NCBI RefSeq assembly: GCF_026421305.1
Contig: NZ_JAPJBQ010000001.1
Location: forward strand, 1 to 64,000
Direction of reading: 5' to 3'
DNA: 64,000 nt
DNA from: Dyella silvae
GTDB taxonomy: Bacteria; Pseudomonadota; Gammaproteobacteria; Xanthomonadales; Rhodanobacteraceae
Made by a program: the position numbers and the translations under genes. The number at the start of each line of letters is the position of its first letter. Position 1 is the first letter of the stretch. Positions 2,278 through 62,020 of this stretch are shown here, in pieces. The notes below the pieces were generated by a model. That model was given only the letters and a program-made list of their open reading frames with translations, was not told the origin of the DNA and searched no databases.

Positions 2278-3843
2278 ATGCGGACAGATCGCTGGATCGT
2301 CGTGTTTGCCTTCACGATCCTTTGCCTATTTCTTCAGGCGTGCTCGACACTCCCGCCCAGTGCCGAGAAAGTGGAGACTCGCCACTTGCCGGCAGCCGCC
2401 GATACGGCATCGGCGAAGTACGACCATTCGGAGGTGGCCAAGCATCCGAACCAATCAGGCTTTCGGTTGCTGACATTGAGCACGAACGCACTGCTCAGCC
2501 GGATAGCGCTTGCCGATCATGCCGCGCACTCGATCGACTTGCAGTACTACATCTTCGCCAATGACATGACCGGGCATCTGATGATGCAGCATCTCCTTGC
2601 CGCGGCCGATCGCGGCGTACGTGTCCGGATGCTCATCGACGACAACAATTTTGATGACAAAGATCATCTGTTTGAGGCACTGGACTCGCACCCGAACATT
2701 GACGTTCGGCTATTCAATCCGTTCCAGACGCGAAATCCGACCCTGCTGTCCCGTGCCGCTCAGCTCATGCTGGAGTGGCGACGCCTCAATCGGCGCATGC
2801 ATAACAAGTCATTCATCGTCGACAACAACGTGGCTGTCATCGGCGGTCGCAACATTGGCGACCCCTATTTCGATGCGAGCAGCGACACGCACTTCCGCGA
2901 TCTCGACGTCGTCGCCATCGGCCCCGTGGTCCAACAGGCATCCGAAGCGTTCGATGCTTACTGGAACTGCGATGCGGCCTATCCACTCAACCAGCTGAAG
3001 AAGACGGATAGCTCTGGCCAGCGCCTCGCTGCAGCACGGTTGATTCTTCAGAAGGAGGTGCGGGCATTCGCACAATCGGACTATGCGCAGGCCGTCCTGG
3101 AAGAGTTACCCAACGGGCCGACCGCCGATAAGCGAGGCACCTGGTTCTGGGGCGATGCTGAGCTCGTGGCCGATCAGCCTGAAAAGGTCGAGACGACTGG
3201 CGATGTGCCGACATTGCGCATCGGCCCCCGGCTCAAGACCATGCTGGACGGCGCCCAACACGAGATACTGGCGACGACGCCCTATTTCATCCCTGGTGAT
3301 GCCGGCACGAAGCATCTCGTATCGCGGGTACAGGGTGGTGTGTCCATCAAAATACTGACGAACTCACTCGCATCGACAGACGAGACGGCGGCGCACGCGG
3401 GCTATGTGCACTATCGCAAGGCGCTGGTCGAAGGCGGCGTGCAGCTGTACGAACTCAAACCCACGTCAGGCCAGAGTCAGCCATCCACATCCATCGGCAA
3501 ATCGTCAGGTATCAGCCTTCATGCCAAGACCATTGTCGTAGACAACCGCCAAGTCTTCATCGGCTCGCTCAACATGGATCAGCGATCCAAATTGCTCAAC
3601 ACGGAAATGGGCGTCATCGTGGATTCGCCTGGATTGGCCCGCGCCATCAGCGACTTTTTCCATACGGCGACGCAGCCTTCCAATGCGTACAAGGTGACGA
3701 TCGATCCGGCTTCTCACCACCTCATCTGGCAGGCAGCGGATGATGGCAGGCCGGTGACTTATGAGAGCGATCCCGGTGCAACTACCAAACGACGCGCGGA
3801 AGTGACGCTTCTTCGCCTGCTTCCCATCGATGGTTTGCTCTAG
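2278..3843 (+). CDS. Phospholipase D family lipoprotein, cardiolipin-synthase-like (ClsC type)
   Basis: 521 residues with two HKD phosphodiesterase motifs: HNKSFIVDNN around His175 and HAKTIVVDNR around His415. Each is followed by the conserved glycine/serine-asparagine turn (GGRNIGD and GSLNMDQRS). The N-terminus has a lipobox (FLQAC), so it is probably anchored in the envelope. Layout and length fit the ClsC/YmdC branch, whose E. coli member makes cardiolipin from phosphatidylglycerol and phosphatidylethanolamine; the ymdB partner found there is absent here. The gene stands alone between two palindromic repeats. PLD family membership is certain; the exact substrate is inferred. Confidence 0.85.
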   Translation: MRTDRWIVVFAFTILCLFLQACSTLPPSAEKVETRHLPAAADTASAKYDHSEVAKHPNQSGFRLLTLSTNALLSRIALADHAAHSIDLQYYIFANDMTGHLMMQHLLAAADRGVRVRMLIDDNNFDDKDHLFEALDSHPNIDVRLFNPFQTRNPTLLSRAAQLMLEWRRLNRRMHNKSFIVDNNVAVIGGRNIGDPYFDASSDTHFRDLDVVAIGPVVQQASEAFDAYWNCDAAYPLNQLKKTDSSGQRLAAARLILQKEVRAFAQSDYAQAVLEELPNGPTADKRGTWFWGDAELVADQPEKVETTGDVPTLRIGPRLKTMLDGAQHEILATTPYFIPGDAGTKHLVSRVQGGVSIKILTNSLASTDETAAHAGYVHYRKALVEGGVQLYELKPTSGQSQPSTSIGKSSGISLHAKTIVVDNRQVFIGSLNMDQRSKLLNTEMGVIVDSPGLARAISDFFHTATQPSNAYKVTIDPASHHLIWQAADDGRPVTYESDPGATTKRRAEVTLLRLLPIDGLL

Positions 3844-3860
3844 TCGTCGCGTTATCGAAT

Positions 3861-3913
3861 AGGGGACGGAGGTAGTTAAGTCCATCGTCGCGAATTAACT
3901 ACCTCCTTCCCCT
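3861..3913. repeat. Long palindromic repeat, copy B
   Basis: Same 19-bp arms and 15-base loop as the copy at 2078, with one mismatch in the right arm (ccttcccct instead of ccgtcccct) and one base change in the loop. It starts 17 bases after the stop codon of the phospholipase gene. Confidence 0.85.
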
Positions 3914-4020
3914 TTGTTTCGCTCGTTCTCTGGCACGTCTTTCACCTGAGCCAGACGGGAAAGTCTGGAATTGTCGTTCGTGATCGTGCTCCCAGGGAAT
4001 GGACCAGAAGGCAGTTGGCC

Positions 4021-4662
4021 TCAAGCGACCCAGGAGGAGCCGCGGATCACGCTGCAGAAGTTCCCGGCATGGAAGTGCACTTCCTTGTCTCTAAGCACGT
4101 CCGCTTTGACATTGCCAAAGGTGGTGTCGGGCTTGTGTTTGATGCCGTCATAGAACGTCTGGATGATCTCTTCCTTGAACTGATTTCCTCGCGGATGGGT
4201 GCGCACGACCGCGTCGCGCTCAGCATCGCCGTATTGGTCATAGGCGATTCCAAGCACGTCCATCTCCACGCCGGCAGTAACCAACGCAATCAGGGGATGC
4301 ATGTGCTTTGGTATCCCAGGTGTGGTGTGGAGCGCGATGGCCGTCCACACGGTGTCAACGTCCTGTTGCTCAATGCCGTGGTTCCTCAGAAAGTCGCGAG
4401 CGGCGTTGGCGCCGTCCACCTCGAACCGCTCATTCGGGCTGCTGTGTCGATGAGAAAGCCCCATGTCGTGGAACATGCAGCCGCAATAGAGTAGTTCCGG
4501 ATCGAATTTCAGACCGCGGCGCTTGCCGGCCAGTGCGGCGAAGTAATACACGCGGCTGGAATGGTGAAAGAGCAGCGGCGAGACGGTATCCCGGACTACA
4601 TCGGTGATTTCACGGGAAAGCTGGCTGTCGGGAATAGCAATGCCATTGATATTGAGGGACAT
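4021..4662 (-). CDS. HD-domain hydrolase, cyanamide-hydratase-like
   Basis: 213 residues. An HD doublet (CMFHDMGLS, His65-Asp66) follows an upstream histidine in FHHSSRVYYF, and further histidines occur in ALHTTPG; together they match the metal-binding HD superfamily. The spacing and the HSSRVYYF / HDMG motifs resemble fungal and bacterial cyanamide hydratase-like HD proteins, but the substrate cannot be deduced. The ATG at 4662 is chosen because GGAGAT precedes it; an upstream in-frame start would run into the promoter shared with the divergent regulator at 4785. It may be a target of that regulator. Confidence 0.75.
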   Translation of the reverse strand: MSLNINGIAIPDSQLSREITDVVRDTVSPLLFHHSSRVYYFAALAGKRRGLKFDPELLYCGCMFHDMGLSHRHSSPNERFEVDGANAARDFLRNHGIEQQDVDTVWTAIALHTTPGIPKHMHPLIALVTAGVEMDVLGIAYDQYGDAERDAVVRTHPRGNQFKEEIIQTFYDGIKHKPDTTFGNVKADVLRDKEVHFHAGNFCSVIRGSSWVA

Positions 4663-4784
4663 GGTTGATCTCCATTGGCTGGGCACACTCATTGTCAGAA
4701 TGGCCAGCGATGGCCTCAATAGGCGCGATACGTCATATACTGCCATTTAGCGCGAAATGCGGACGCGTAGGAGGCTGTAGCCCA

Positions 4785-5756
4785 ATGGCCAAAATTGTTG
4801 CCGTCGTCGCCATACCAGGGGTGCAGTTGCTTGATGTCTCCGGACCGCTAGACGTGTTTGCACAGGCGAATGTCGAAGCAGGCAGGGAGTTCTATGCGCT
4901 TAAGGTCATCGCATGTCAGCGGGGCCCCATCGTCACCTCGTCCGGCGCACGCCTGCTGCCGGATGAGGTCGCGGGCGAATGCGCTGAGCGCATCGATACC
5001 CTGTTGGTGGCCGGAGCCCCGAACGCCGGAAAAATGGCCCTGCCGGCCCATCTGCTGAAGTGGCTGCGAACGACCGCCAAGCGCAGTAGACGCTATGGCT
5101 CGATATGCACAGGCGCCTTTTTGCTTGCGGAGACGGGATTGCTGGATGGGCGTCGCGTCACTACCCACTGGGCAGTTGCGGCGGACCTGGCGCGTACTTA
5201 TCCCACGCTGCAGATCGACGAAGATGCGCTATATGTCCGCGACGGGAAACTGCGCACTGCTGCGGGCGTTACTGCGGGCCTGGATCTGGCGTTGGCGCTC
5301 GTGGAGGAAGACCTGGGCCGCCCTATTGCAAAGCGAGTCGCCGGCCAGTTGGTCATGTACTTCAAGCGGCCAGGAGGGCAATTGCAGTTCAGTCGAAAGG
5401 GCGAAACGCGCCCCCTGGGGCGCGCGGCGCTACAGGAGGCGCAGCGCTGGGTGGCTGCGAGTCCGGATTTGGACCACAGCATTGCCAGCTTGGCGAAGCG
5501 TGCAGGTCTAAGTCCCCGCCACTTCGCGCGTCTCTTCCATGCCGAGGTGGGTATTACACCTGCGGCGTGGGTTGAGACCGCCCGTGTATCGGCAGCTCGC
5601 ACGCTTCTCGAAAGTGGGCACGATACGCCCAAGCTCGTTGCTTCCAAGTGCGGCTTTGCTAATGCCGACATGCTGCGGCGGTCCTTCAAGAAGCACGTTG
5701 GCGTCACCCCGGCGGAGTACCGAAAGCAACATGTGCCGAATAGCGGACGGAGGTAG
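4785..5756 (+). CDS. GlxA-type transcription regulator (DJ-1/PfpI-like domain plus AraC HTH)
   Basis: About 323 residues. Residues 1-190 form a DJ-1/PfpI-like domain with the nucleophile-elbow motif GSICTGAFLLAE and the following THWA. The last 100 residues are an AraC-type double helix-turn-helix, ending with the typical CGFANADMLRRSFKKHVG and TPAEYRK. Such proteins usually activate neighbouring genes in response to nitrogen-containing metabolites; the divergent HD hydrolase 120 bases away is the obvious candidate. A TAGGAGG ribosome-binding site supports the ATG at 4785. The last few codons and the stop lie inside the palindromic repeat at 5742, so the repeat seems to have set the C-terminus. 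Confidence 0.85.
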   Translation: MAKIVAVVAIPGVQLLDVSGPLDVFAQANVEAGREFYALKVIACQRGPIVTSSGARLLPDEVAGECAERIDTLLVAGAPNAGKMALPAHLLKWLRTTAKRSRRYGSICTGAFLLAETGLLDGRRVTTHWAVAADLARTYPTLQIDEDALYVRDGKLRTAAGVTAGLDLALALVEEDLGRPIAKRVAGQLVMYFKRPGGQLQFSRKGETRPLGRAALQEAQRWVAASPDLDHSIASLAKRAGLSPRHFARLFHAEVGITPAAWVETARVSAARTLLESGHDTPKLVASKCGFANADMLRRSFKKHVGVTPAEYRKQHVPNSGRR

Positions 5757-5794
5757 TTAAGTCCATCGTCGCGAATTAACTACCTCCGTCCCCT
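5742..5794. repeat. Long palindromic repeat, copy C, overlapping a gene end
   Basis: Same family as 2078 and 3861; the left arm reads agcggacggaggtagttaa with one change. The TAG inside the arm is the stop codon of the GlxA-type gene, so 15 bases of that gene are repeat-derived. Confidence 0.85.
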
Positions 5795-5840
5795 TTGTTT
5801 CGCGATGTCCATATCGATGCCGCGAAGATGCGATGTCGTA

Positions 5841-6791
5841 TCAGTCGAAGCGGACGACGCCGAAGTGCGTAGGCAGGTTGATGGTGAAGCAGTTGTTCCT
5901 GCCGAGTGCGTTTTCGATGTTCGTGAAGTGCCGCTGCCTGAAGGCTTCGCGGCGATCCGGTGGGATGCGGTCGATAAAGCCCCGCAGGCCCGAGTTGTTG
6001 GCCAGTAGCCACCACTGTTCGAGGCTGGCCACGCGGTATGGCGGTGCCTCGCTGATGAGCGACGCGCGTCCGCCGAAGCTGCTGAGAAGGTCCATCAGCA
6101 CGACAGGGTTGGCGAAACGGTGACGAAAATCCGCGATCTCGTCTGGCAACGTGGGGATCTCGGTGGCGAGGTCCTTCAGGAGGATTTCGCCCAGCGGCGG
6201 AAAGCCCCGTTCGGCCCAGAACGAAAACGCCCACCTTCCGCGCGGCGCCATCCACTGGCGGAATCTCCACAGGGCGTCTTCCATGTTCGGGAGGAAGAAT
6301 AGCGAGAAGCCGCCAAGGATGGCGTCGAATCGGCGGTCCGGTATGAAGGTCGCTGCGTCGGCTTCGAGGTAGCGCAAGCCCGGAATACCTGCTTCGCGGG
6401 CACGCTGCTGTGCCGTCGTGACCATCGTCGGTGCCATGTCGATGCCCAACACTGACCCTTCGGGATACGCCGCGGCAGCCGCGGCCATCGCGACAGCGCC
6501 CGTGCCAGAGCCAACATCGAGCACATGCTGCCCGGGCGAAATATCCGCAAGCGTTACCAGACGTTTGCCGAGTAGCGACCAGAAGTCCAGCGGCGGCCGG
6601 TCGAACTGGTTGGCGATGCGACCGAAGAGGATTCGAGTCGTGTCGTTTGCTGATGAATCGATCGGGGATGTTGGATCGAGTGGATTACGTGGTCCGTTCA
6701 CAGGTTGATACTCAAGGGCGTTCGCTCTTTCAAGATGGGCGCGTGTCGGCTCGTGATGAATCGAGGCGATGTCGCAATGACGCGCATGCAT
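5841..6791 (-). CDS. Class I SAM-dependent methyltransferase, paralogue 1
   Basis: About 316 residues (start uncertain; GTG starts at 6860 and 6701 are also possible). The SAM-binding motif I reads VLDVGSGTGAVAMA, followed by LGIDMAPTMV and LRYLEADA, as in the UbiE/Coq5-type fold. The C-terminal half, with GGFSLFFLPNMEDAL and the repeated Trp-rich stretch EQWWLL, is shared with the next gene upstream, so the two are tandem paralogues. Both are divergent from a LysR-type regulator. Small-molecule O- or N-methylation is likely; the substrate is unknown. Confidence 0.75.
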   Translation of the reverse strand: MHARHCDIASIHHEPTRAHLERANALEYQPVNGPRNPLDPTSPIDSSANDTTRILFGRIANQFDRPPLDFWSLLGKRLVTLADISPGQHVLDVGSGTGAVAMAAAAAAYPEGSVLGIDMAPTMVTTAQQRAREAGIPGLRYLEADAATFIPDRRFDAILGGFSLFFLPNMEDALWRFRQWMAPRGRWAFSFWAERGFPPLGEILLKDLATEIPTLPDEIADFRHRFANPVVLMDLLSSFGGRASLISEAPPYRVASLEQWWLLANNSGLRGFIDRIPPDRREAFRQRHFTNIENALGRNNCFTINLPTHFGVVRFD

Positions 6792-6902
6792 GGCGCGGCC
6801 GGTGATGCGGTACCAGCCATCCAGGCTGGCGCCGCTGGGATCGCAAAAAAAAGAGAGCACGTCAGTTGATGAGTCGGGCTCGCGCTATGAAGATCCGTAT
6901 CT

Positions 6903-7844
6903 TTAAAGTAGAAAAAAGGGTTCCACACGACGCGAGAACCTGACGATGGCGAACTGCACCGGAAGTTCTACGGTCAAGAACGTATTCTTGCCAAACCATT
7001 CCTCAATGCGATGGAAGTGACGTCGCTTGAATCCTGCAAGCTGCTGGGGATCGATGTGTTCGATGAGGAGGCGCATGTCGCTGTGCATGACTAAGTTCCA
7101 CCACAGGTCGGTGGTTCCGACGGGAAAATGGTGTAGCTCAGATACAACCGAAACGCGGCCACCAAAATCCGAGAACAAGCTCGCCAGCGTCGATTGGTCG
7201 GCCGCCCTGTGACGAAATGCCTCGACGTCGGCGGACAGGTGGGGAAACAAAGTGCCAAGATCCTCCAGCAACATATCTCCAAGAGGCGCAAAGGGCAGTC
7301 GCGACCAGAACGAGAACGACCAGCTACTGGTGGGCTTCATCCAGTCTTGAAATCGTTTGAGGGTCGCGCGCATGTCCTCGATGAAATACAGCGAAAAGCC
7401 CCCCAGAATGGCGTCCAACCGCCGGTGACTGGCAAACGTGTGGGCATCCGCATGATGGAAGCTCAAGCGAGGCGCGCCAGCCTCGCGGGCCCTGCGCCCG
7501 GCGACATCGACCATGCGTTGCGCAATGTCGATGCCAAGTACCGATCCGCCCGGATGGACAGCTTGCGCGGCTGGAATCGACACGGCTCCTGTGCCAGAAC
7601 CGATGTCCAGTACCTGCTGTCCTGGTTTCAGCTCCGTCAATTCGACCAGGCGTTGACCCATGAGCGACCAGAAGCTGAGCGGGTGACGATCAAAGTGATC
7701 CGCCATCCGGCTGAAAAGCTCACCGGCACCCTCTGGAATCATGCAGGAAAGGTGGCTGGTGGGTTTGATATGCACGTTCAAGCGAGTGTGTCCTCCGGTG
7801 TCTCGCCGGTAACCGAGCATGCCTCGAGGGCTGATAGACGACAT
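6903..7844 (-). CDS. Class I SAM-dependent methyltransferase, paralogue 2
   Basis: 313 residues. Motif I is VLDIGSGTGAVSIP, then LGIDIAQRMVDVA and LSFHHADA; the block FDRHPLSFWSLMGQRLVEL before it aligns with FDRPPLDFWSLLGKRLVTL in the neighbour at 5841. The two proteins match along most of their length, so one arose from the other by duplication and has diverged well. It is the first gene after the divergent promoter with the LysR gene at 7948, which carries a perfect inverted repeat at 7877. Probably co-transcribed with paralogue 1, although about 110 bases separate them. Confidence 0.8.
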   Translation of the reverse strand: MSSISPRGMLGYRRDTGGHTRLNVHIKPTSHLSCMIPEGAGELFSRMADHFDRHPLSFWSLMGQRLVELTELKPGQQVLDIGSGTGAVSIPAAQAVHPGGSVLGIDIAQRMVDVAGRRAREAGAPRLSFHHADAHTFASHRRLDAILGGFSLYFIEDMRATLKRFQDWMKPTSSWSFSFWSRLPFAPLGDMLLEDLGTLFPHLSADVEAFRHRAADQSTLASLFSDFGGRVSVVSELHHFPVGTTDLWWNLVMHSDMRLLIEHIDPQQLAGFKRRHFHRIEEWFGKNTFLTVELPVQFAIVRFSRRVEPFFLL

Positions 7845-16961: not shown

Positions 16962-18952
16962 TTGTCGGCACCGCGGGCCATATCGATCATGGCAAGACCG
17001 CGCTGGTCAAAGCGTTGACCGGCGTTGATGCCGATCGCCTGAAGGAAGAAAAGGCGCGTGGCATCACCATCGATCTGGGGTTCGCGTATCTGCCATTGGA
17101 CGATGGCTCCGTGCTCGGCTTCGTCGATGTGCCCGGACATGAGCGATTTGTACACACCATGGTGGCCGGTGCCAGTGGCATCGATGTGGCCTTGCTGGTG
17201 GTGGCAGCGGACGACGGCGTCATGCCGCAAACGCTCGAACATGTGGCGATTCTGGATCTGTTGCGGATCAGGCGCGGCCTGATCGCGCTGACCAAGGCCG
17301 ATCTGGCGACACCGTCACGATTGACCGAAGTAACAACGGAGATTCGTCAAGCAATAGCGGGCACCGTGCTCGAGGGCGCCGATATCCTGCCGGTGTCGTC
17401 AACCACGGGCTCCGGTATTGACGCATTGCGCGATCGGCTCGCCCGCGAAGCGCATGCATTGGGCGAGCGCGCTGCCGATGGCCGCTTTCGTCTTGCCGTG
17501 GATCGCGTGTTCACCCTGACCGGTATTGGCGTGGTGGTGACCGGCACCGTGCTATCCGGCGAAGTGCGCGTGAAGGATGCCGTGCGGCTGAGCCCGTCCG
17601 GGCTCACGGCGCGTGTGCGTTCGCTGCATGCACAGAACCGTCCGGTCGAGCGTGGACGGGCAGGGGACCGTTGCGCGCTCAACCTCACCGGCGAAGGCAT
17701 AGCAAAAGATACGATTCGTCGCGGCGACATGGTGGTCGATGCGCTCCTGCATGCGCCCACTGACCGGATCGATGCTCGTCTGCGCCTTCTTCCGGGTGAA
17801 TCCCGATCGGTGGGGCAATGGTTTCCGGCCCGGCTGCATCATGGCGCCGCCGAAACCGGTGCTCGTGTCGTCGTGCTCGATGGTGACAAGCTGCTACCGG
17901 GCCACACTGCAGATGTGCAACTGGTACTGGATCGGCCGATTGCCACCGCTGCGCTGGATCCTTTCGTATTGCGTGATGTCTCCGCGCGACGCACCATCGG
18001 TGGTGGTCAGTTCATCGATCTGCATCCGCCGGCGCGTCAACGCCGTACCGCCGAACGCAAGGCTCAACGTGCCGCACTGGCTATCGCTGATCCGCAAGAG
18101 GCGTTTGCCGCCTTACTCGACACGCCGCCATTCGCCTGGAATCTTTCTGCCTTCGCCCGGGATCGCGCGTTGTCCGCAACGAGTAGCGATGACCTGGTAT
18201 CAGCCCTTGCACCGGTGACCTTCGATCTCGACGAAGGGCGCATGGCTGTCAGCCCAGTGCATTGGCGAAGCTTTGTTGCGGATGTACTTCAGCGCCTCCA
18301 GAACTTCCACGCCATCTGCCCCGACCTGCAGGGCATGGGGCGGGAACGATTGCGGCTTGCGTTGTCGCTCCGGCTTCCTTCCGTGGCCTTTGCGTTGGCG
18401 CTGCAGCATGCGGACCTTGCGGGCCAGGTGGTACGCGATGGTGCCTTTGTGCGGCTCGCCAGCCATTCGTTGCAACTGAGTCCGGAGCGCGAGGCGTTGT
18501 GGCAGACGGTCGCGCCGTTACTAGGTGACGATGTTCGATTCCGCCCGCCACGCGTGCGCGACATCGCCGGGACACTGGCGCGTTCGGAGCAGGACATCAG
18601 ACAGTTGCTGAAATTCGCGGCTCGTCTGGGGCTGGTCGATGAAGTGGCACACGATCATTACTTTCTTCGCACAACCACGCATGAGATGGTGCTGATTGCT
18701 GCGGATATCGCAGTCCATGCCCCCGATGGCCGCTTTACCGCCGCGCAGTTTCGCGACCGTCTCGACAATGGCCGAAAAGTAGCCATCCAGATCCTTGAAT
18801 TTTTTGATCGGCAGGGTGTTACGCTCAACCGCGGTACCTTGCGCAGCATTCAGGCGCGTTATCTCGATTTGTTCGGTGCTGCTTCCGCTGCATCTGCAGT
18901 ACATGGAAGAGAATCGTCTCCGGTGGGGCGTCCGGACTTCAAATCCGGGTGA
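16958..18952 (+). CDS. selB: Selenocysteine-specific elongation factor
   Basis: 664 residues. G-domain motifs: [14 protein letters not shown] (P-loop), the switch region [20 protein letters not shown] and TKAD. Domains II and III follow and then the C-terminal winged-helix repeats that bind SECIS RNA; the last reads ARYLDLFG. SelB brings Sec-tRNA(Sec) to the ribosome at UGA codons such as the one in fdoG. The stop codon lies 48 bases inside the tRNA-Sec gene, so the last 15 or so residues ([15 protein letters not shown]) are encoded by tRNA sequence and are unlikely to be structurally important. Confidence 0.95.
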
Positions 18953-19001
18953 GGCAGATAAGACTGTCTCGGGTGGGTTCGACTCCCATTCTCTTCCGCC
19001 A
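18905..19001 (+). tRNA. selC: tRNA-Sec (anticodon TCA)
   Basis: 97 bases including the encoded CCA. The long acceptor arm ggaagagaat pairs with attctcttcc, followed by discriminator G and CCA. The anticodon loop is ctTCAaa within a ccgga/tccgg stem; a long extra arm and the T-arm gggttcgactccc follow. It overlaps the selB 3' end by 48 bases on the same strand and was read by eye from the fold. Confidence 0.95.
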
Positions 19002-48822: not shown

Positions 48823-48838
48823 TGGCATGCATGTTGCG
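48823..48838 (+). promoter_or_regulatory. Sigma-54 (RpoN) promoter of the Fap-like cluster
   Basis: TGGCATGCATGTTGCG, with GG and GC exactly 12 bases apart, differs from the consensus TGGCACGN4TTGCW at one core base and the last base. Transcription would start near 48850, about 50 bases before the first gene. The 310 bases upstream hold no gene and contain three GTAAC-type repeats that could be activator sites. Confidence 0.65.
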
Positions 48839-48901
48839 ACTAATCCGTGCTGGACTTGCAAGACCAGCAACACAGGGGGTCACCGCATCGTTCCAGGAGT
48901 A

Positions 48902-49864
48902 ATGACTATGCGTAAGACTCTAATAGCGACTGCGATTGTTCTGGGATTGGGGCTGGCACTCCCGGCATTCGCGGACAATACGGATAACTCAGGCAACTCA
49001 GGTGCCATCACTAGTAGCAGTACCAACTCGAGCACCCACAGCAACTCGAGCACGCACACTAAGACCTTCACGGATGCTTTCAATTCAGGCGATGCGGCCG
49101 CTTCTGGCGAGGGCACCGCCGCAGCTAATAACGGCGGAACGGCAAACGCTTCGTTCACCGATTCGTTCAACACCAATATTGCGGTAGCCAACAGCGATCT
49201 GTCGGGCTCCGTCAGTAATGTTGGCGTGAGCGGCATTGGCAACTGGGCGCAGAACAACGGCGACGCCAGTGGCGGCGACGGCGGCCGTGGCGGTAAAGGC
49301 ATCGGCGGCAAGGCCATCGGCGGTAACGGTGGTGACGGCGGCGATGGCGGCAACGCTCATTCGCGTAGCGGTCATGCCGGCGGCAGCGGCGCATCCAGTG
49401 GTGATTCGGGTGCATTCGCAAGTGCCTTTGGCGGCGATAGCGAAGGCGACAACTACGCCAATGCTCATTCGCGTAACCATGGCAGCGGCAGCAGCGGCAA
49501 TGCGACCGGTGGCAACGGCAGTTGGACAGGTGGCGCAGCAACCGGAGGTACTTCGACCTCAGCTAGCGGCGCTGCTTCCTCCACTGGCGGTACCAGCGGT
49601 TCATCGACCGCTTCGGCGGGTAGCGGCGGTGCCGGCGGTGCTGGCTCTGGCGGTACCGGTGGTGCTGGTTCGGGCGGTTCGGGCGGTGCTGGCGGCGCAG
49701 GCGGAACGGCCTATGCCGATGCTGGCACTTTCGACATGTCCAACCAGATGAACAACGCGGCAGCAGCGGCTGCGGGCGTCACGATCATTGCTCAGAACAG
49801 CGGTGCGGCATCGCTGCTCCAGCAGAGCGTGAATGTCCAGGCCAACCTGAACTTCAGTCACTAA
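48902..49864 (+). CDS. Gly/Ser/Asn-rich secreted protein, candidate amyloid subunit
   Basis: 320 residues: signal peptide (TLIATAIVLGLGLALPAFA), then low-complexity sequence. Repeats include FTDAFN / FTDSFN, NAHSRSG / NAHSRNH and long Gly-Ser-Ala runs (GGAGGAGSGGTGGAGSGGSG). The last 40 residues change to MNNAAAAAAGVTIIAQNSGA then ASLLQQSVNVQANLNF, an Asn/Gln-rich beta-like motif. It is first in a cluster with a C39 peptidase and an outer-membrane barrel, the arrangement of Pseudomonas fap operons, so it is the likely fibre subunit (FapB/FapC role). Composition alone would also fit an adhesin or silk-like matrix protein. AGGAG lies before the ATG at 48902. Confidence 0.7.
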   Translation: MTMRKTLIATAIVLGLGLALPAFADNTDNSGNSGAITSSSTNSSTHSNSSTHTKTFTDAFNSGDAAASGEGTAAANNGGTANASFTDSFNTNIAVANSDLSGSVSNVGVSGIGNWAQNNGDASGGDGGRGGKGIGGKAIGGNGGDGGDGGNAHSRSGHAGGSGASSGDSGAFASAFGGDSEGDNYANAHSRNHGSGSSGNATGGNGSWTGGAATGGTSTSASGAASSTGGTSGSSTASAGSGGAGGAGSGGTGGAGSGGSGGAGGAGGTAYADAGTFDMSNQMNNAAAAAAGVTIIAQNSGAASLLQQSVNVQANLNFSH

Positions 49865-49879
49865 CAGGTAATAGCCCGG

Positions 49880-49907
49880 CACGGTGGAGCGTTCGCGCTC
49901 CACCGTG
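49880..49907 (+). promoter_or_regulatory. Perfect 12-bp hairpin with TTCG tetraloop after the fibre gene
   Basis: cacggtggagcg-ttcg-cgctccaccgtg, starting 16 bases after the stop codon. No T-run follows, so it is more likely an mRNA 3'-end stabiliser or partial terminator that lets the first gene be expressed more than those downstream. Confidence 0.6.
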
Positions 49908-49972
49908 TTCGGTCACGTCATCAAACGCCTGAGCTCGAGCGGTCGGGGCGTCGTTGCCCGAACGCCCACGTC

Positions 49973-50413
49973 ATGAAGTCGGGGAGGTTTGCCGTGCGAT
50001 CCTTCAAGTGGATGCTAGGTTTTACCGTCGCCTGCGTAGCTATAGCGCCAGCGGCGCTTTACGCGGAAGACGCGCAGATTCCCGCGGCCTATCTCGCGAC
50101 TGGATCCGATTCGCCGGTTGCCGTGTACACGGCAGCGGTTCGTGTGACTGGCGACACCACGCCCGGCGCGCTGGGCGAGAGCGTGGACAACACTGCGCTT
50201 GCCGGCATGAGCGGCGGCACCATGGTGATCCAGGACACCACGATTACGGGCAGCGTCACCAGCGATACGGCGGATCACGTCATTTCCGGAGACAACCTGA
50301 TCAGCGGCGGCTCTTTTGCCGGCGCCGCGGGTGTTCCCGTGGTGATCCAGAATTCCGGCAGCAATGTATTGATCCAGAACGCAACTGTGCTCAACGTACA
50401 GTTCAAACCATGA
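49973..50413 (+). CDS. Small secreted protein of the Fap-like cluster, LxxMxGG motif
   Basis: 146 residues with a signal peptide (MLGFTVACVAIAPAALYA). The mature part has TALAGMSGGTMVIQDT, where L76-x-x-M-x-G81-G82 resembles a double-glycine cleavage site, and ends VVIQNSGSNVLIQNATVLN, closely related to the C-termini of the other two secreted proteins (48902, 51101). No family name is known to me. The stop overlaps the start of the peptidase gene (ATGA), so the two are coupled and probably act together. Confidence 0.65.
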   Translation: MKSGRFAVRSFKWMLGFTVACVAIAPAALYAEDAQIPAAYLATGSDSPVAVYTAAVRVTGDTTPGALGESVDNTALAGMSGGTMVIQDTTITGSVTSDTADHVISGDNLISGGSFAGAAGVPVVIQNSGSNVLIQNATVLNVQFKP

Positions 50414-51096
50414 ATAAGCGGGCGGCGCTGCTGATCATCATCGCGGCGCTGCCGCTGGGAAGCCATGCCTCAACGCCCGTGGGAGTGGTCAGCGGGCAGG
50501 GCGGCAACTATACGGTGCATCTGACGAGCCTCAAGGAAGCCCGCTACAAGAGCACCCTCCATCAGAAATACGACTTCAGCTGCGGCTCCGCTGCGGTAGC
50601 GACCTTGCTGACCTATCAGTACGGCTACCCGATGAATGAGCAGGTGGCTTTCGAGCAGATGTACATGCATGGCGATCAGGCAAAGATCTCCAAGGAAGGT
50701 TTCTCACTGCTCGATATCAAGCGTTTCCTGGGGGCGAACGGATTTGACGCGGATGGCTTTCGCGTGCCGCTGGATAAGCTCCAGCAGGAGAATTTGCCTG
50801 CCATCGTCTTGATCGACGAAAAGGGCTATCACCATTTCGTGGTGATCAAAGGCATGCAGAATGATCGTGTGCTTGTGGGCGACCCCGCACGCGGTACGCG
50901 CGTCATCTCACGCACCAAGTTCATGACGCTGTGGCAGAACGGGATCGTCTTCGTCATCCACAACCGTCGCAACCTCGCGGTATTCAACAGCCCGACCGAC
51001 TGGAAAGTGGCGCCACCGTCGCCGCTCAGTGAGGGCATTGACCACAATGGTCTGTTCAACACCGTCATGCCCAAAAAAGGGCCGGGTGACCTCTGA
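50410..51096 (+). CDS. C39-family cysteine peptidase, FapD-like
   Basis: 228 residues with a signal peptide, so periplasmic and free of the ABC transporter that usually carries C39 domains. Catalytic set: Gln52 and Cys58 in HQKYDFSCGSAAVATLL, His142 in GYHHFVVIKG and Asp158 in VGDPARG. Pseudomonas FapD has the same architecture and sits at the same place, after the fibre genes and before the pore. C39 enzymes cut after double glycine; both neighbours carry L-x-x-M-x-G-G. Translationally coupled to the gene before it. Confidence 0.85.
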   Translation: MNKRAALLIIIAALPLGSHASTPVGVVSGQGGNYTVHLTSLKEARYKSTLHQKYDFSCGSAAVATLLTYQYGYPMNEQVAFEQMYMHGDQAKISKEGFSLLDIKRFLGANGFDADGFRVPLDKLQQENLPAIVLIDEKGYHHFVVIKGMQNDRVLVGDPARGTRVISRTKFMTLWQNGIVFVIHNRRNLAVFNSPTDWKVAPPSPLSEGIDHNGLFNTVMPKKGPGDL

Positions 51097-51100
51097 GGAC

Positions 51101-51673
51101 ATGACGATGAGATCGACGATACGCTTGATCTGCCTCGGTGCCATCTTCCTTGCGTGCGGCTATGGCGCAAAGGCGCAAGATGCCATCACGCCGCCTGCGT
51201 CTTCTGCAGTTGTTGCGGCGGGTGATACAGCCGTGCTCGCAGGGGGGGACGACGTAACCCAGTGGGTGCCGGTGAGCCAGGACACCCTGGACGATATGCG
51301 TGGCGGTTACGACATGGGCAATGGCCTGGTCGCATCGTTTGGCATCGACCGCGCCGTTTACGTCAACGGTGAGCTCGTCACCTCCACCAGTTTCTACGTG
51401 CCAGACATCGCGCACATGACAGCCGCGCAGGCGACGACCATGGCTACGGCGCTCAACTCGGTGTCGTTGACGCAAGTGGGCCCCAACAACACCTTCAATC
51501 CGTCGGCGCTGGGTGGCATGTCCGCTGGCACGGTGATCCAGAACACGCTGAACAACCAGAGAATCCAGAGCATCACCACGCTCAATACCACGGTTAACAC
51601 GCTCAACGCGTTCCGCGAAGCGAATTTCCAAGAGGGATTACAGCAAGCGCAACTGCAGTCGCTGGGACATTGA
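51101..51673 (+). CDS. Secreted protein of the Fap-like cluster, FapE-position, LxxMxGG motif
   Basis: 190 residues with a signal peptide (LICLGAIFLACGYGAKA). SQDTLDDMRGGYDMGNGL holds L63-x-x-M-x-G68-G69, the same spacing as in the gene at 49973. SFGIDRAVYVNGELVTSTS is beta-rich, and GTVIQNTLNNQRIQSITTLN repeats the C-terminal VIQN motif. It starts five bases after the peptidase stop, in the order of fapE after fapD. Role suggested: minor fibre component or nucleator; not proven. Confidence 0.65.
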   Translation: MTMRSTIRLICLGAIFLACGYGAKAQDAITPPASSAVVAAGDTAVLAGGDDVTQWVPVSQDTLDDMRGGYDMGNGLVASFGIDRAVYVNGELVTSTSFYVPDIAHMTAAQATTMATALNSVSLTQVGPNNTFNPSALGGMSAGTVIQNTLNNQRIQSITTLNTTVNTLNAFREANFQEGLQQAQLQSLGH

Positions 51674-51785
51674 TCGCTATGGAACGCCCGCAGACAGGAG
51701 TCGTTGCCCACCATCAATACGCAGCGGTTCATCGCTGCAGCGTGTTGGTTGACGCCGGACATAGAACCGTGAGCCATGAGGAAGC

Positions 51786-53267
51786 ATGATGCGATACGCA
51801 ACGAGGAGAACTCTCTGGTCAGCGGTGTGTGCAGGGCTGGTGACGCTCGGCGTGCCGGTGGCCGCGCAACAGACCCAGGCGCCTGCGTCTGCATCGACGA
51901 ATTGGACCAGACCGGCCGCCGCCTTGATTCCCGCAGCCGCCAGCACGGTTGCCGCTCGTCCAGATGCATCCACGCCAGCAACGCCGCCGGCGGATATTCG
52001 TAAGCAGGTAACAGAGCAGGGCGAACGCATCGATGCGATGCGGAGCCAGATCAGTGCGCAGATGGAACAACTCGATGCCATGAAGCGCGCACTGGCGGAG
52101 CAGGAGGCGGACTACAAGGCGTTGCGTCACGCCGTGGGTATGGACGAGCTGGATAAACAGCGCGCTGGCAGTATTTCGGCCGGTGGGCCTGGCGCGTCGG
52201 CGCTACCCATGCCTGCAGCGCAAGCAGTGGCAGCCAACGCGCCCTCGGGTCCACAGACGGTGGGTGAGGCGCCTAAGCCGGACACGCGACCTCCGGAAGT
52301 CGCGCCTATTTTCCAGCAGCCCGGCGTGCTCACGCCCAAGGGCAGGATCATCATCGAACCCGCCTATCAGTTCGGGTACTCGTCGCTCGACCGCGTGGCG
52401 CTGGTGGGCTATACGGTGATTCCCGCCATTCTCATTGGCCTGATCGATGCGCGACAGGTCAAGACGACGACGCAAATTGGTTGGCTGACGGGCCGTTACG
52501 GCATCACCAATCGGCTCGAAGTCGAAATTCGTGTGCCCTATGTCTACGCGCATACCGATACGGTCAGCCGCGAAATTTTCACCGGCACCGCGACGAATGT
52601 CGCGTTTGGTTCCAGTGGTCACGGTCTGGGTGACATTGAAGGAACCGTGCGCTATCAGCTCAATGTGGGCGGACCAGATAAGGCGTTTTATGTCGGGTGG
52701 CTGCGCGTGAAGTCGAACACGGGCAAGGATCCATTCCAGGTCGTTACCGACTGTATCAACCGCTGTGTCGAAAGCGTGATCAACGAAGTGGACCTGCAGG
52801 CAACCGGTACGGGGTTGCCGCTGCAGCAACCGACCGGTTCGGGTTTCTGGTCGATACAGCCGGGCGTCACCTGGTTGTATCCCACCGACCCGGTCGTGTT
52901 CTTCGGCAATGTGAGTTATCTCTACAACGTGCCGCGCTATGGCGTTAGCCGCAAGATTCTTCTAGGTGGTACGGAGGAGCTGGGCAAGGTGAAGGTCGGT
53001 GACGTTACCGACCTCAGCATAGGCCTGGGTTTGTCGCTCAATGAACGAGCGTCCATCAGTATTGGCTACGACCAGAGCTTCGTAGGTATCACCAAGCAGA
53101 ACAATCACACCGTGCCAGGCTCGGTCAAAACCGTGCTTGGCACGCTGCTGCTGGGTGGCTCGTGGCGAATGAACGACAAGCGCACGCTCAACTTCACCCT
53201 TGGTGTAGGTGTGACGCGCGATACACCAGACGCCACGGTCACCGTGCGCGTGCCGATGATGTACTAG
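51786..53267 (+). CDS. Outer-membrane barrel with N-terminal coiled coil, FapF-like
   Basis: 493 residues: signal peptide (ending VPVAAQ), a Pro/Ala-rich linker, a coiled coil at about 71-118 (RKQVTEQGERIDAMRSQISA onward), a second linker, and a C-terminal barrel of alternating strands ending VRVPMMY. FapF of Pseudomonas has this very plan: trimerising coiled coil, flexible linker and 12-stranded pore that exports amyloid subunits. It is the last gene of the set, as fapF is. The barrel part also resembles generic transporter barrels. Cysteines in DCINRCVES are odd for such a protein. Confidence 0.7.
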   Translation: MMRYATRRTLWSAVCAGLVTLGVPVAAQQTQAPASASTNWTRPAAALIPAAASTVAARPDASTPATPPADIRKQVTEQGERIDAMRSQISAQMEQLDAMKRALAEQEADYKALRHAVGMDELDKQRAGSISAGGPGASALPMPAAQAVAANAPSGPQTVGEAPKPDTRPPEVAPIFQQPGVLTPKGRIIIEPAYQFGYSSLDRVALVGYTVIPAILIGLIDARQVKTTTQIGWLTGRYGITNRLEVEIRVPYVYAHTDTVSREIFTGTATNVAFGSSGHGLGDIEGTVRYQLNVGGPDKAFYVGWLRVKSNTGKDPFQVVTDCINRCVESVINEVDLQATGTGLPLQQPTGSGFWSIQPGVTWLYPTDPVVFFGNVSYLYNVPRYGVSRKILLGGTEELGKVKVGDVTDLSIGLGLSLNERASISIGYDQSFVGITKQNNHTVPGSVKTVLGTLLLGGSWRMNDKRTLNFTLGVGVTRDTPDATVTVRVPMMY

Positions 53268-60615: not shown

Positions 60616-61746
60616 ATGAAACGTAAGGGCCTGTACATTCTTATTGCCCTCGCCCTGGGCGGCGCCGGCGCCGTTCACGCGCAGGACAACACTGCTTCTG
60701 GCAGCTCTGCACCGACCACAACGTCCACGACCACCTTCGACGATCGCTGGTATATCGCACCGACCGTCGGTGGCTACTACAACGACACCGACCGAAACAC
60801 CAACAGCCGTCAGTTCTACTACGGCCTGGGCTTCGGTAAGTTCTGGACGCCCAACTTCTCGGTGGATGCCTTTGGTGATCGCACCAAGCGCACGGTCGAC
60901 ACCGCCGTCGGCCATGGCCGCTGGTCGAACAACGTCTACGGTCTTGCTGCTCGCTACTACTTCCTTGATTGGAACGCATGGCGTCCGTACATCCTGGGCG
61001 GTGTGATGGGAAGCCAGCACATCAGCAGCTATGGAAATAATGGCTGGTCGCCTGCCGCTGAAATCGGCGTGGGTGTATCCAAGACTGTCACCGACAGTGC
61101 GGACATCCGCATTGAAGGCGGCTACCGTTACGACTGGGACGACAGCACGCAGCCGGCCCCGGCCAAGAACAACGGTTACGGCGACTGGTTCCTGGGCTTC
61201 AGCATCGTGCAGCGCTTCGGTGCACCGCCGGCTGCGCCGGTTGCAGCGGTGGCACCGCCGCCGCCGGACTGCTCCAAGCAGTTCCGCAATGGCGTGAACC
61301 TGTGTGACAACAAGTGCCCGGATCTGCCGGAAGGCACGATCGTTGGTCCGGATGGCTGCCCGCAGAAGGTTGTGATCGACCTGCGCGGCGTCAACTTCAA
61401 GTTCGATCGTCCGAAGAAGGGCGAGAAGGACATCAAGAAGGCGCTGGCTGAGCCGACCGCTGACTCCTTGGCCGTTCTCGACCAGGCTGTCGACACCCTG
61501 CAGCGTTATCCGCAGGTCAAGGTTACCGTCGCTGGCTACACCGACTCGGTGGGTAAGGACGCGTACAACCAGGATCTGTCGGAGCGTCGCGCGAAGATCG
61601 TGTACGACTACCTCACCGCGCACGGCATCACCGCCGACCGTCTGGTTGGTCCGATCGGTCACGGCAAGAACGATCCGATCGACTCCAACGACACGGAATC
61701 CGGTCGCGCTCGCAACCGTCGTACGGAACTGCAAGTTCAGCAGTAA
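60616..61746 (+). CDS. OmpA-family outer-membrane protein, copy 1
   Basis: 376 residues: signal peptide (ILIALALGGAGAVHAQ), an eight-strand-type barrel domain up to about 205 (RWYIAPTVGGYYNDTDRNTN, GYGDWFLGFSIVQRFG), a Pro/Ala hinge, then a short Cys-containing linker (DCSKQFRNGVNLCDNKCPD) and the OmpA C-terminal peptidoglycan-binding domain (VTVAGYTDSVGKDAYNQDLS and RNRRTEL). The next gene is a tandem paralogue with an almost identical C-terminal half. Own terminator at 61770. Confidence 0.9.
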   Translation: MKRKGLYILIALALGGAGAVHAQDNTASGSSAPTTTSTTTFDDRWYIAPTVGGYYNDTDRNTNSRQFYYGLGFGKFWTPNFSVDAFGDRTKRTVDTAVGHGRWSNNVYGLAARYYFLDWNAWRPYILGGVMGSQHISSYGNNGWSPAAEIGVGVSKTVTDSADIRIEGGYRYDWDDSTQPAPAKNNGYGDWFLGFSIVQRFGAPPAAPVAAVAPPPPDCSKQFRNGVNLCDNKCPDLPEGTIVGPDGCPQKVVIDLRGVNFKFDRPKKGEKDIKKALAEPTADSLAVLDQAVDTLQRYPQVKVTVAGYTDSVGKDAYNQDLSERRAKIVYDYLTAHGITADRLVGPIGHGKNDPIDSNDTESGRARNRRTELQVQQ

Positions 61747-61769
61747 TCGAACTTTGTCAGGTAACACTG

Positions 61770-61802
61770 AAAAGCCCGGCGTATGCCGGGCTTTTCTTTT
61801 TA
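61770..61802 (+). terminator. Terminator of ompA copy 1
   Basis: aaaagcccggc pairs with gccgggctttt around gtat, followed by ctttttat. A nearly identical second copy follows at 61930-61961 as part of the tandem duplication. Confidence 0.9.
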
Positions 61803-61849
61803 TAAGTGATCACACACAGACAACCTGAGAAACGTGTACGTCGATGCGC

Positions 61850-62020
61850 GACACGGAATCCGGTCGCGCGCGCAACCGTCGTACGGAACTACAAGTTCAG
61901 CAGTAATCGAACTTTGTCAGGTAACACTGAAAAGCCCAGCGTATGCCGGGCTTTCTTTTTGTAAGTGATCACACACAGGCAACCTAAGATTTCAACTGCT
62001 AATCGTGTACGTCGATGCGC
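61850..62020 (+). repeat. Tandem duplication of the ompA copy 1 tail and terminator
   Basis: This stretch repeats 61690-61849: the last 18 codons of the gene (TESGRARNRRTELQVQQ), stop, terminator and trailing spacer, with a few base changes and an 11-base insertion. Both units begin at gacac, and gacac recurs at 62021, suggesting duplication between short direct repeats. The copied codons are not attached to a start and form a non-functional relic. Confidence 0.9.

Follow-up and report, generated by a model that had tools for sequence, protein, structure and literature searches.

A cluster of five genes in the first 64,000 nucleotides of contig NZ_JAPJBQ010000001.1 of Dyella silvae (the whole of that stretch is called the window here) most likely, to judge from its protein sequences, exports surface fibres by a protease-and-pore machine like the one that serves the Pseudomonas biofilm amyloid Fap. 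The genes, P1 to P5, all lie on the + strand at 48908-53267 of the window. The cluster is genuine and conserved, and this variant of the Fap machine is widespread. Like fapABCDEF of Pseudomonas it has a FapD-type peptidase, a FapF-type pore and, encoded between the two, a protein with a FapE-type N-terminal module, in a similar gene order; unlike Fap it is without FapA and without the FapB/FapC repeats, in whose place stand a Gly-rich P1 and a short P2. It is probably a Fap-type fibre export system with fibre subunits unlike those of Fap.

The gene cluster and its recurrence

All five genes are present, and on the strand, as an earlier sequence-only reading had described, and each opens with a signal-peptide-like stretch (judged by eye). 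P1 (48908..49864, +) encodes an exported Gly/Ser/Ala/Asn-rich protein that is presumed to be the major fibre subunit. Its start, MRKT, is kept in 19 of 19 aligned rows, and an alternative upstream ATG at 48902 is possible; the sequence-only reading was right about the gene, but the start that it placed at 48823-48827 merely lengthens the frame upstream of the conserved one. P2 (49973..50413, +) encodes a small exported double-glycine precursor with a predicted mature form of 64 residues. The start of P3 (50410..51096, +), the gene for a C39 peptidase with a signal peptide, overlaps the end of P2 by ATGA. P4 (51101..51673, +) encodes a further small exported protein, with a predicted mature form of 121 residues, and P5 (51786..53267, +) the outer-membrane barrel. 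Neighbouring genes, read by eye, include no ABC transporter next to the cluster.

A relative of P5 is present in 65 of 117 genomes sampled from the family; it is close in 46 (at least 57% identity), distant in 25 (at most 30%) and of both sorts in six; a close one is found in all nine genomes of the genus. Twenty close and 20 distant loci were fetched. P1 to P5 follow in order in 19 of the close ones, the remaining locus being cut by a contig start, and the distant loci are canonical fap clusters, which yielded FapB from 17 and FapC from 18 for alignments. Protein starts in group A were set by a home-made signal-peptide score, and the alignments of P2 and P4, of 19 rows each, omit P2 of L033 (which has a run of N) and P4 of L044 (wrong frame). 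Scanning named genomes brought up 456 relatives of P5, and counts on 80 loci refer to the best 80 of these 456, whose genera are Dyella, Rhodanobacter, Luteibacter, Lysobacter, Luteimonas, Pseudoxanthomonas, Burkholderia, Pandoraea, Cupriavidus and others. All five genes occur in 78 of the 80, co-oriented in 76 and with the barrel on the opposite strand in two; the incomplete loci, L187 and L191, both run into contig ends. Median gaps across these relatives are 118 bases for P1-P2, -4 for P2-P3, 8 for P3-P4 and 61 for P4-P5. Homologous clusters without the peptidase or the pore would have counted against the sequence-only reading, by its own criterion; both are kept in 19/20 close and 78/80 named loci.

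Further afield, the FapF model at E 1e-15 matched 34 of 398 genomes of the phylum and 0 of 14 controls, and 33 of the 41 wider places given by the FapF model were fetched. Fourteen wider loci (L091, L094, L098-L108, L110) combine a C39 peptidase, a P5-like barrel that is frequently on the opposite strand, and two small exported proteins with an LxxxRG site. By eye, that site reads RGG in the P4-like protein of all 14 and, in the P2-like protein, RGG in nine, RGR in three and SGR in two. L109 has the barrel, with no C39 gene within the fetched stretch. Both cluster kinds occur in two genomes, G147 (L090, L091) and G202 (L093, L094), and L111-L114 are of a third, Fil-like kind (one of the four scanned). 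Variations in layout were also seen. L103 carries at 2554-6970 a tandem duplicate of the P1-P2-C39-P4 unit, with P2, C39 and P4 of equal lengths and scores in both copies; in L093, whose genome has a cluster of the present kind in L094, a canonical fapABCDEF is preceded by an additional FapC fragment and a copy of fapD and fapE.

The peptidase and the pore

P5 scores 139.5 bits with the NCBIfam FapF model and just 34.8 bits with that of FilC, and it aligns with FapF of solved structure over residues 164-491 (E 1.2e-24). Comparison of hidden Markov model profiles, which the sequence-only reading had proposed as a check on its analogy with Fap, gives E 2.6e-41 for P5 with FapF and E 5e-47 for P3 with FapD. 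The structure model of P5, of fair confidence (59.9), has a helix at residues 68-116 (51987..52133, +), predicted to be periplasmic and a coiled-coil candidate, and then 14 strand segments; its top 18 Foldseek matches are all FapF chains (1e-16). By sequence and model P5 is a predicted FapF-type barrel with an N-terminal periplasmic helix, and it matches FapF and not an unrelated transporter family. That it is a small-molecule channel like those of COG4313, in a neighbourhood that is coincidental, is hardly credible: the closest fold after the FapF chains, at rank 19, is the COG4313 channel 4rl8, but its 1e-10 is far behind the 1e-16 of FapF, and the five genes stand together in 78 of 80 loci. 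A plain COG4313 uptake channel was rejected on this ranking.

P3 scores 79.8 bits with Pfam Peptidase_C39 (cut-off 22), and 139 and 122 bits with NCBIfam FapD and FilB, both below the NCBIfam cut-offs. Gln52, Cys58, His142 and Asp158 do not vary across the 20 aligned rows, and the description of P3 as a secreted C39 peptidase with complete catalytic residues and without an adjoining ABC transporter is borne out. Its sequence identifies P3 as a putative exported peptidase of FapD type with the catalytic residues present. In a midpoint-rooted tree of 52 C39 domains (every second row of two alignments and 32 others), this cluster's kind and canonical Fap are split by a branch with values of 92/95, which is below the 95 mark and carries a long-branch warning.

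Presumed fibre proteins without Fap repeats

Mature P1 consists of 25% G, 17% S, 17% A and 10% N. The protein is of low complexity, rich in GGxGG and, among the loci read, from 55 residues (a contig-end fragment) to 807 residues long; it matches no Pfam or NCBIfam family over cut-off. Near its C-terminus is a Gln/Asn motif, AAAAAGVTIIAQNSGAASLLQQSVNVQANL (49751..49849, +), common to P1 and P2, with none of 150 column shuffles reaching the score of the match, and the C-terminal match between P4 and P2 in this motif is likewise as high in 0 of 150. These features of P1, its variable length and its lack of Fap repeats allow for a protein that forms a non-amyloid gel or a silk-like coat of polyglycine type, carried by the same export machine and not a cross-beta fibre. 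The keeping of the Gln/Asn C-terminal motif amid very variable P1 sequence speaks against such a coat, which we regard as possible though doubtful.

A model of the Fap repeat matches 0 of 78 P1, 0 of 79 P2 and 0 of 80 P4 proteins, and with the whole FapB and FapC models neither the window nor any of the 80 loci gives a match. As controls, the repeat model recovers its training rows (17/17 FapB, 18/18 FapC) and, among other rows, 11/12 and 27/27, the sets overlapping. The FapA model, which detects its protein in 10 of 33 other loci, has 0 matches in the window and the 80 loci, in agreement with the sequence-only reading, which saw no fapA. That reading had gone on to call the cluster a divergent relative of Fap, and this holds for the pore, the peptidase and the layout, but not for FapB and FapC, which are replaced rather than just diverged, given the null result with the repeat models. 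The cluster cannot be classed as Fap because the test for FapB/FapC repeats fails.

An ordinary Fap system in which FapB and FapC have diverged past recognition is unlikely. In its favour, homology and the gene order of fap are seen for the pore, the peptidase and the FapE module, and mature P2 has a faint likeness to one Fap repeat (23%, 1/150 shuffles; best P2 E with the repeat model 0.005; P2 with FapB 49% in profile comparison). Against this, the repeat model gives 0/78 and 0/79 for P1 and P2 where it gives 27/27 for independent FapB/FapC control rows, rows that had been chosen by FapB/FapC profiles; six family genomes carry this cluster together with a second, distant FapF relative; the C39 tree puts the two on opposite sides of its dividing branch, which is unstarred; and P2 has a C39 site while shuffling finds none above chance in FapB or FapC. 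By sequence P2 appears to be without a clear Fap counterpart.

Double-glycine sites and the link to FapE

The leaders removed by C39 peptidases have the double-glycine consensus LSxxELxxIxGG. P2 has a predicted C39 leader site at residues 71-82 (50183..50218, +), with the cut expected after Gly82; L at -7 and G at -2 are present in 80/80 rows and G at -1 in 79/80. The corresponding site of P4, VSQDTLDDMRGG, is at residues 58-69 (51272..51307, +), with the cut predicted after Gly69, and here L at -7 and G at -2 and -1 are found in 80 of 81 rows, the exception being a contig-end fragment, and R at -3 in 79. These counts come from an alignment without an imposed pattern; an earlier leader table had forced L or M (V) at -7 and G at -2. 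The E at -8 of the consensus is mostly missing, and the columns between signal peptide and leader site are weakly conserved, with a mean top-residue fraction of 0.39 and 0.29 in P2 and P4. By sequence both proteins follow the pattern of a putative double-glycine substrate, with L at -7 and GG at -2/-1, behind a Sec-type signal peptide.

The P4 site has a homologue near the N-terminus of FapE, ELxxMRG[R/K]: the profiles of P4 and FapE match across 33 columns (95.7%, E 9.3e-9; 0 of 150 column shuffles as high), compared with 1.8% for the control of P4 with FapB. Within FapE, R-G-R is invariant in 18 of 18 rows of canonical clusters, and R or K stands at -1 in 32 of 32 when Pseudomonas and others are included (a pattern-based count); this sets Fap apart from the present cluster, where P2 and P4 have a true double-glycine site. 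P4 looks from its sequence to be a FapE relative in the N-terminal module only. An additional exported protein of 100 residues with a leader-like PISDKNLQKVTGR, outside FapE, is encoded upstream in a canonical fap cluster (L088 2341-2643).

Passages of Rouse 2017 (PMC5557850) give the catalytic cysteine of FapD as essential for Fap secretion and call the FapD target unclear; they describe the Fap proteins as lacking canonical C39 sequences and the FapE N-terminus as missing from mass spectra. A 2025 review (PMC12822426), in the part available, has FapD thought to process FapE and FapF.

Double-glycine peptides also suggest a quite different cargo. In the nap island of Neisseria (NapP, NapF, NapA-C), by its published description in the available passages of PMC11798529, a C39 peptidase is combined with a FapF-related channel and double-glycine substrates, and P2 and P4 might by analogy be bacteriocin-like or autolysis peptides leaving through a FapF-like channel, with P1 a matrix or shield protein. 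The nap peptides are, by the same description, small (<10 kDa), cationic and promote autolysis, in contrast to predicted mature P2, with an isoelectric point of 4.13, and P4, with one of 4.92 and a mass of 12.8 kDa; P4 contains the FapE module, and P1 is in every locus not cut by a contig end. Export of this sort is distinctly improbable, and a nap-like bacteriocin exporter was discarded on the acidity of predicted mature P2 and P4 and the FapE module of P4.

Promoter and hairpin

The double-glycine sites, and the two features that follow, are additions to what the sequence-only reading contained. A sigma-54 (-24/-12) promoter-like site, TGGCATGCATGTTGCG, lies before P1 at 48823..48838 (+). 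In 62 of 79 loci the 260 bases before P1 contain a motif that scores 9.5 or more out of 11.5; the same score is reached before P2 in 4/79, before P4 in 0/80, before P5 in 0/80 and in 15 of 800 random pieces. In L094, L099, L100 and L101 sigma-54 activators are encoded close by, with a VpsR domain in the case of L100; the window's own genome has five strong ones, of which none is inside the window. Directly after P1 an mRNA hairpin of 14 pairs, two of them G-U, is predicted at 49878..49909 (+), and a stem of at least 10 follows P1 in 67/78 loci and P4 in 9/77. Fap resembles the cluster in both respects: passages of PMC9207406 report a mapped -24/-12 RpoN promoter for fap of P. fluorescens PF07, with the activator BrfA adjacent, and a weaker hairpin counterpart follows FapC, the presumed major subunit there, in 6 of 18 (Pseudomonas 3/6) and FapB in 1 of 18.

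Proposed mechanism

P1 to P5 would all leave the cytoplasm by Sec, their signal peptides suggest. In the periplasm P3 would trim the minor subunits P2 and P4 after the double glycine, yielding the 64- and 121-residue mature forms, and these, together with uncut P1, would cross the outer membrane through P5. Outside the cell P1 may polymerise into the bulk of the fibre; P2 and P4 would start or anchor it, joined by a Gln/Asn motif that relates P1's to P4's via P2. The sigma-54 promoter-like site points to a regulated fibre, probably one linked to biofilm, and the hairpin after P1 would hold P1 mRNA in excess.

A number of results weigh against such a fibre exporter. P3 and P5, unlike Fap proteins, are far short of the equivalog cut-offs, at 139 bits against 330 for FapD and 139.5 against 700 for FapF, and the confidence of the P5 model is only fair. 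The AlphaFold model of P1 is uninformative (predicted local distance difference test score of 34), the P1-FapC alignment is confined to the signal peptide, and the P1 C-terminus compared with the Fap repeat is equalled by 93 of 150 shuffles. There is no direct match of the P4 and P1 C-termini (36 of 150 shuffles as high), and P2 reaches 13.2% with FapE and 1.2% with FapC in profile comparison. The whole FapE model matches in five of the 80 loci and not in the window. In single proteins the leader site does not reach significance by shuffling, with p<0.05 in 4 of 80 P4 and 13 of 79 P2, and for FapE the canonical leader form gives 0/32, or 15/32 with position -1 free; the case for the sites rests on in-register conservation. 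No C39-leader family is among the NCBIfam matches, up to E 10, of P4 or P2 members, and since FapE has R/K and not G at -1, P3 and FapD may not share one cleavage specificity.

Related systems

The Fil cluster (NCBIfam FilA-FilD) is similar to P1-P5 in that a C39 peptidase and a FapF-related barrel accompany an exported protein bearing a leader-like motif. L111 matches the FilA/DUF6160, FilB, FilC and FilD models and differs from the present cluster in its DUF6160/FilA-like protein and FadL-type FilD; among the genes shown for L111-L114 nothing matches P1, P2 or P4. The FilA-like protein of L111 has, by eye, a leader-like MDDAALSGITGQ past its signal peptide, a hint that a third type of C39 substrate exists, and FilA is mentioned as a pilus subunit in Acinetobacter in a passage of PMC11784438. 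Curli (csg) is also a system of secreted proteins with Gln/Asn motifs for surface fibres, but none of P1-P5 matches a curli family in Pfam.

The pairing of a FapF-type channel with double-glycine peptides is not in itself new, since it is published for the nap island. Passages of Rouse 2018 (PMC6173800) give fapD-fapF pairs in five further phyla, and those of Dueholm 2013 (PMC3792158) state that fapA is often missing and that FapD and FapF belong to larger families. With this precedent in Neisseria, and with fapD-fapF pairs already known, the cluster falls short of being categorically new. No publication on the cluster itself was found among titles, starts of abstracts and passages, a search that did not extend to subscription papers and preprints.

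Other features of the window

Before the cluster are genes that we take, by eye, to be prpE/prpB/prpC-like, and after it others presumably GST-like, TerC-like and acnD/prpF-like. A tRNA-Ile match by ARAGORN within P1 (49097-49186) was judged false. Elsewhere, a tRNA-Sec gene is at 18905-19001, and a tandem repeat at 61689-61989 (160-base unit, 1.9 copies, 95% matches) spans the end of an open reading frame at 60616-61746 into the next gap.

Implications

The 2025 review (PMC12822426), in the passages available, presents Fap as an evolutionarily fixed amyloid system on the basis of screens that start with the FapB/FapC repeat. Published repeat-based screens of this kind would miss the present branch, for which one genome scan gave 456 relatives of the barrel. 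The chances are roughly even that machines of FapD/FapF type make up a broad class for fibre secretion, with canonical Fap as one branch and the present cluster, whose fibre proteins would be repeat-free and Gly- or Asn-rich, as another, and that the C39 peptidase of either branch targets a FapE-type initiator exported by Sec, at a single homologous site, LxxxRG[G/R/K]. The substrate candidates P2 and P4 carry a C39 site and, since that of P4 lines up with one exact spot in FapE, the question of the FapD target becomes testable by one cleavage assay; a single homologous site in both branches would, if true, settle what FapD cuts. The cluster would also supply an export machine that already suits a glycine-rich, silk-like cargo.

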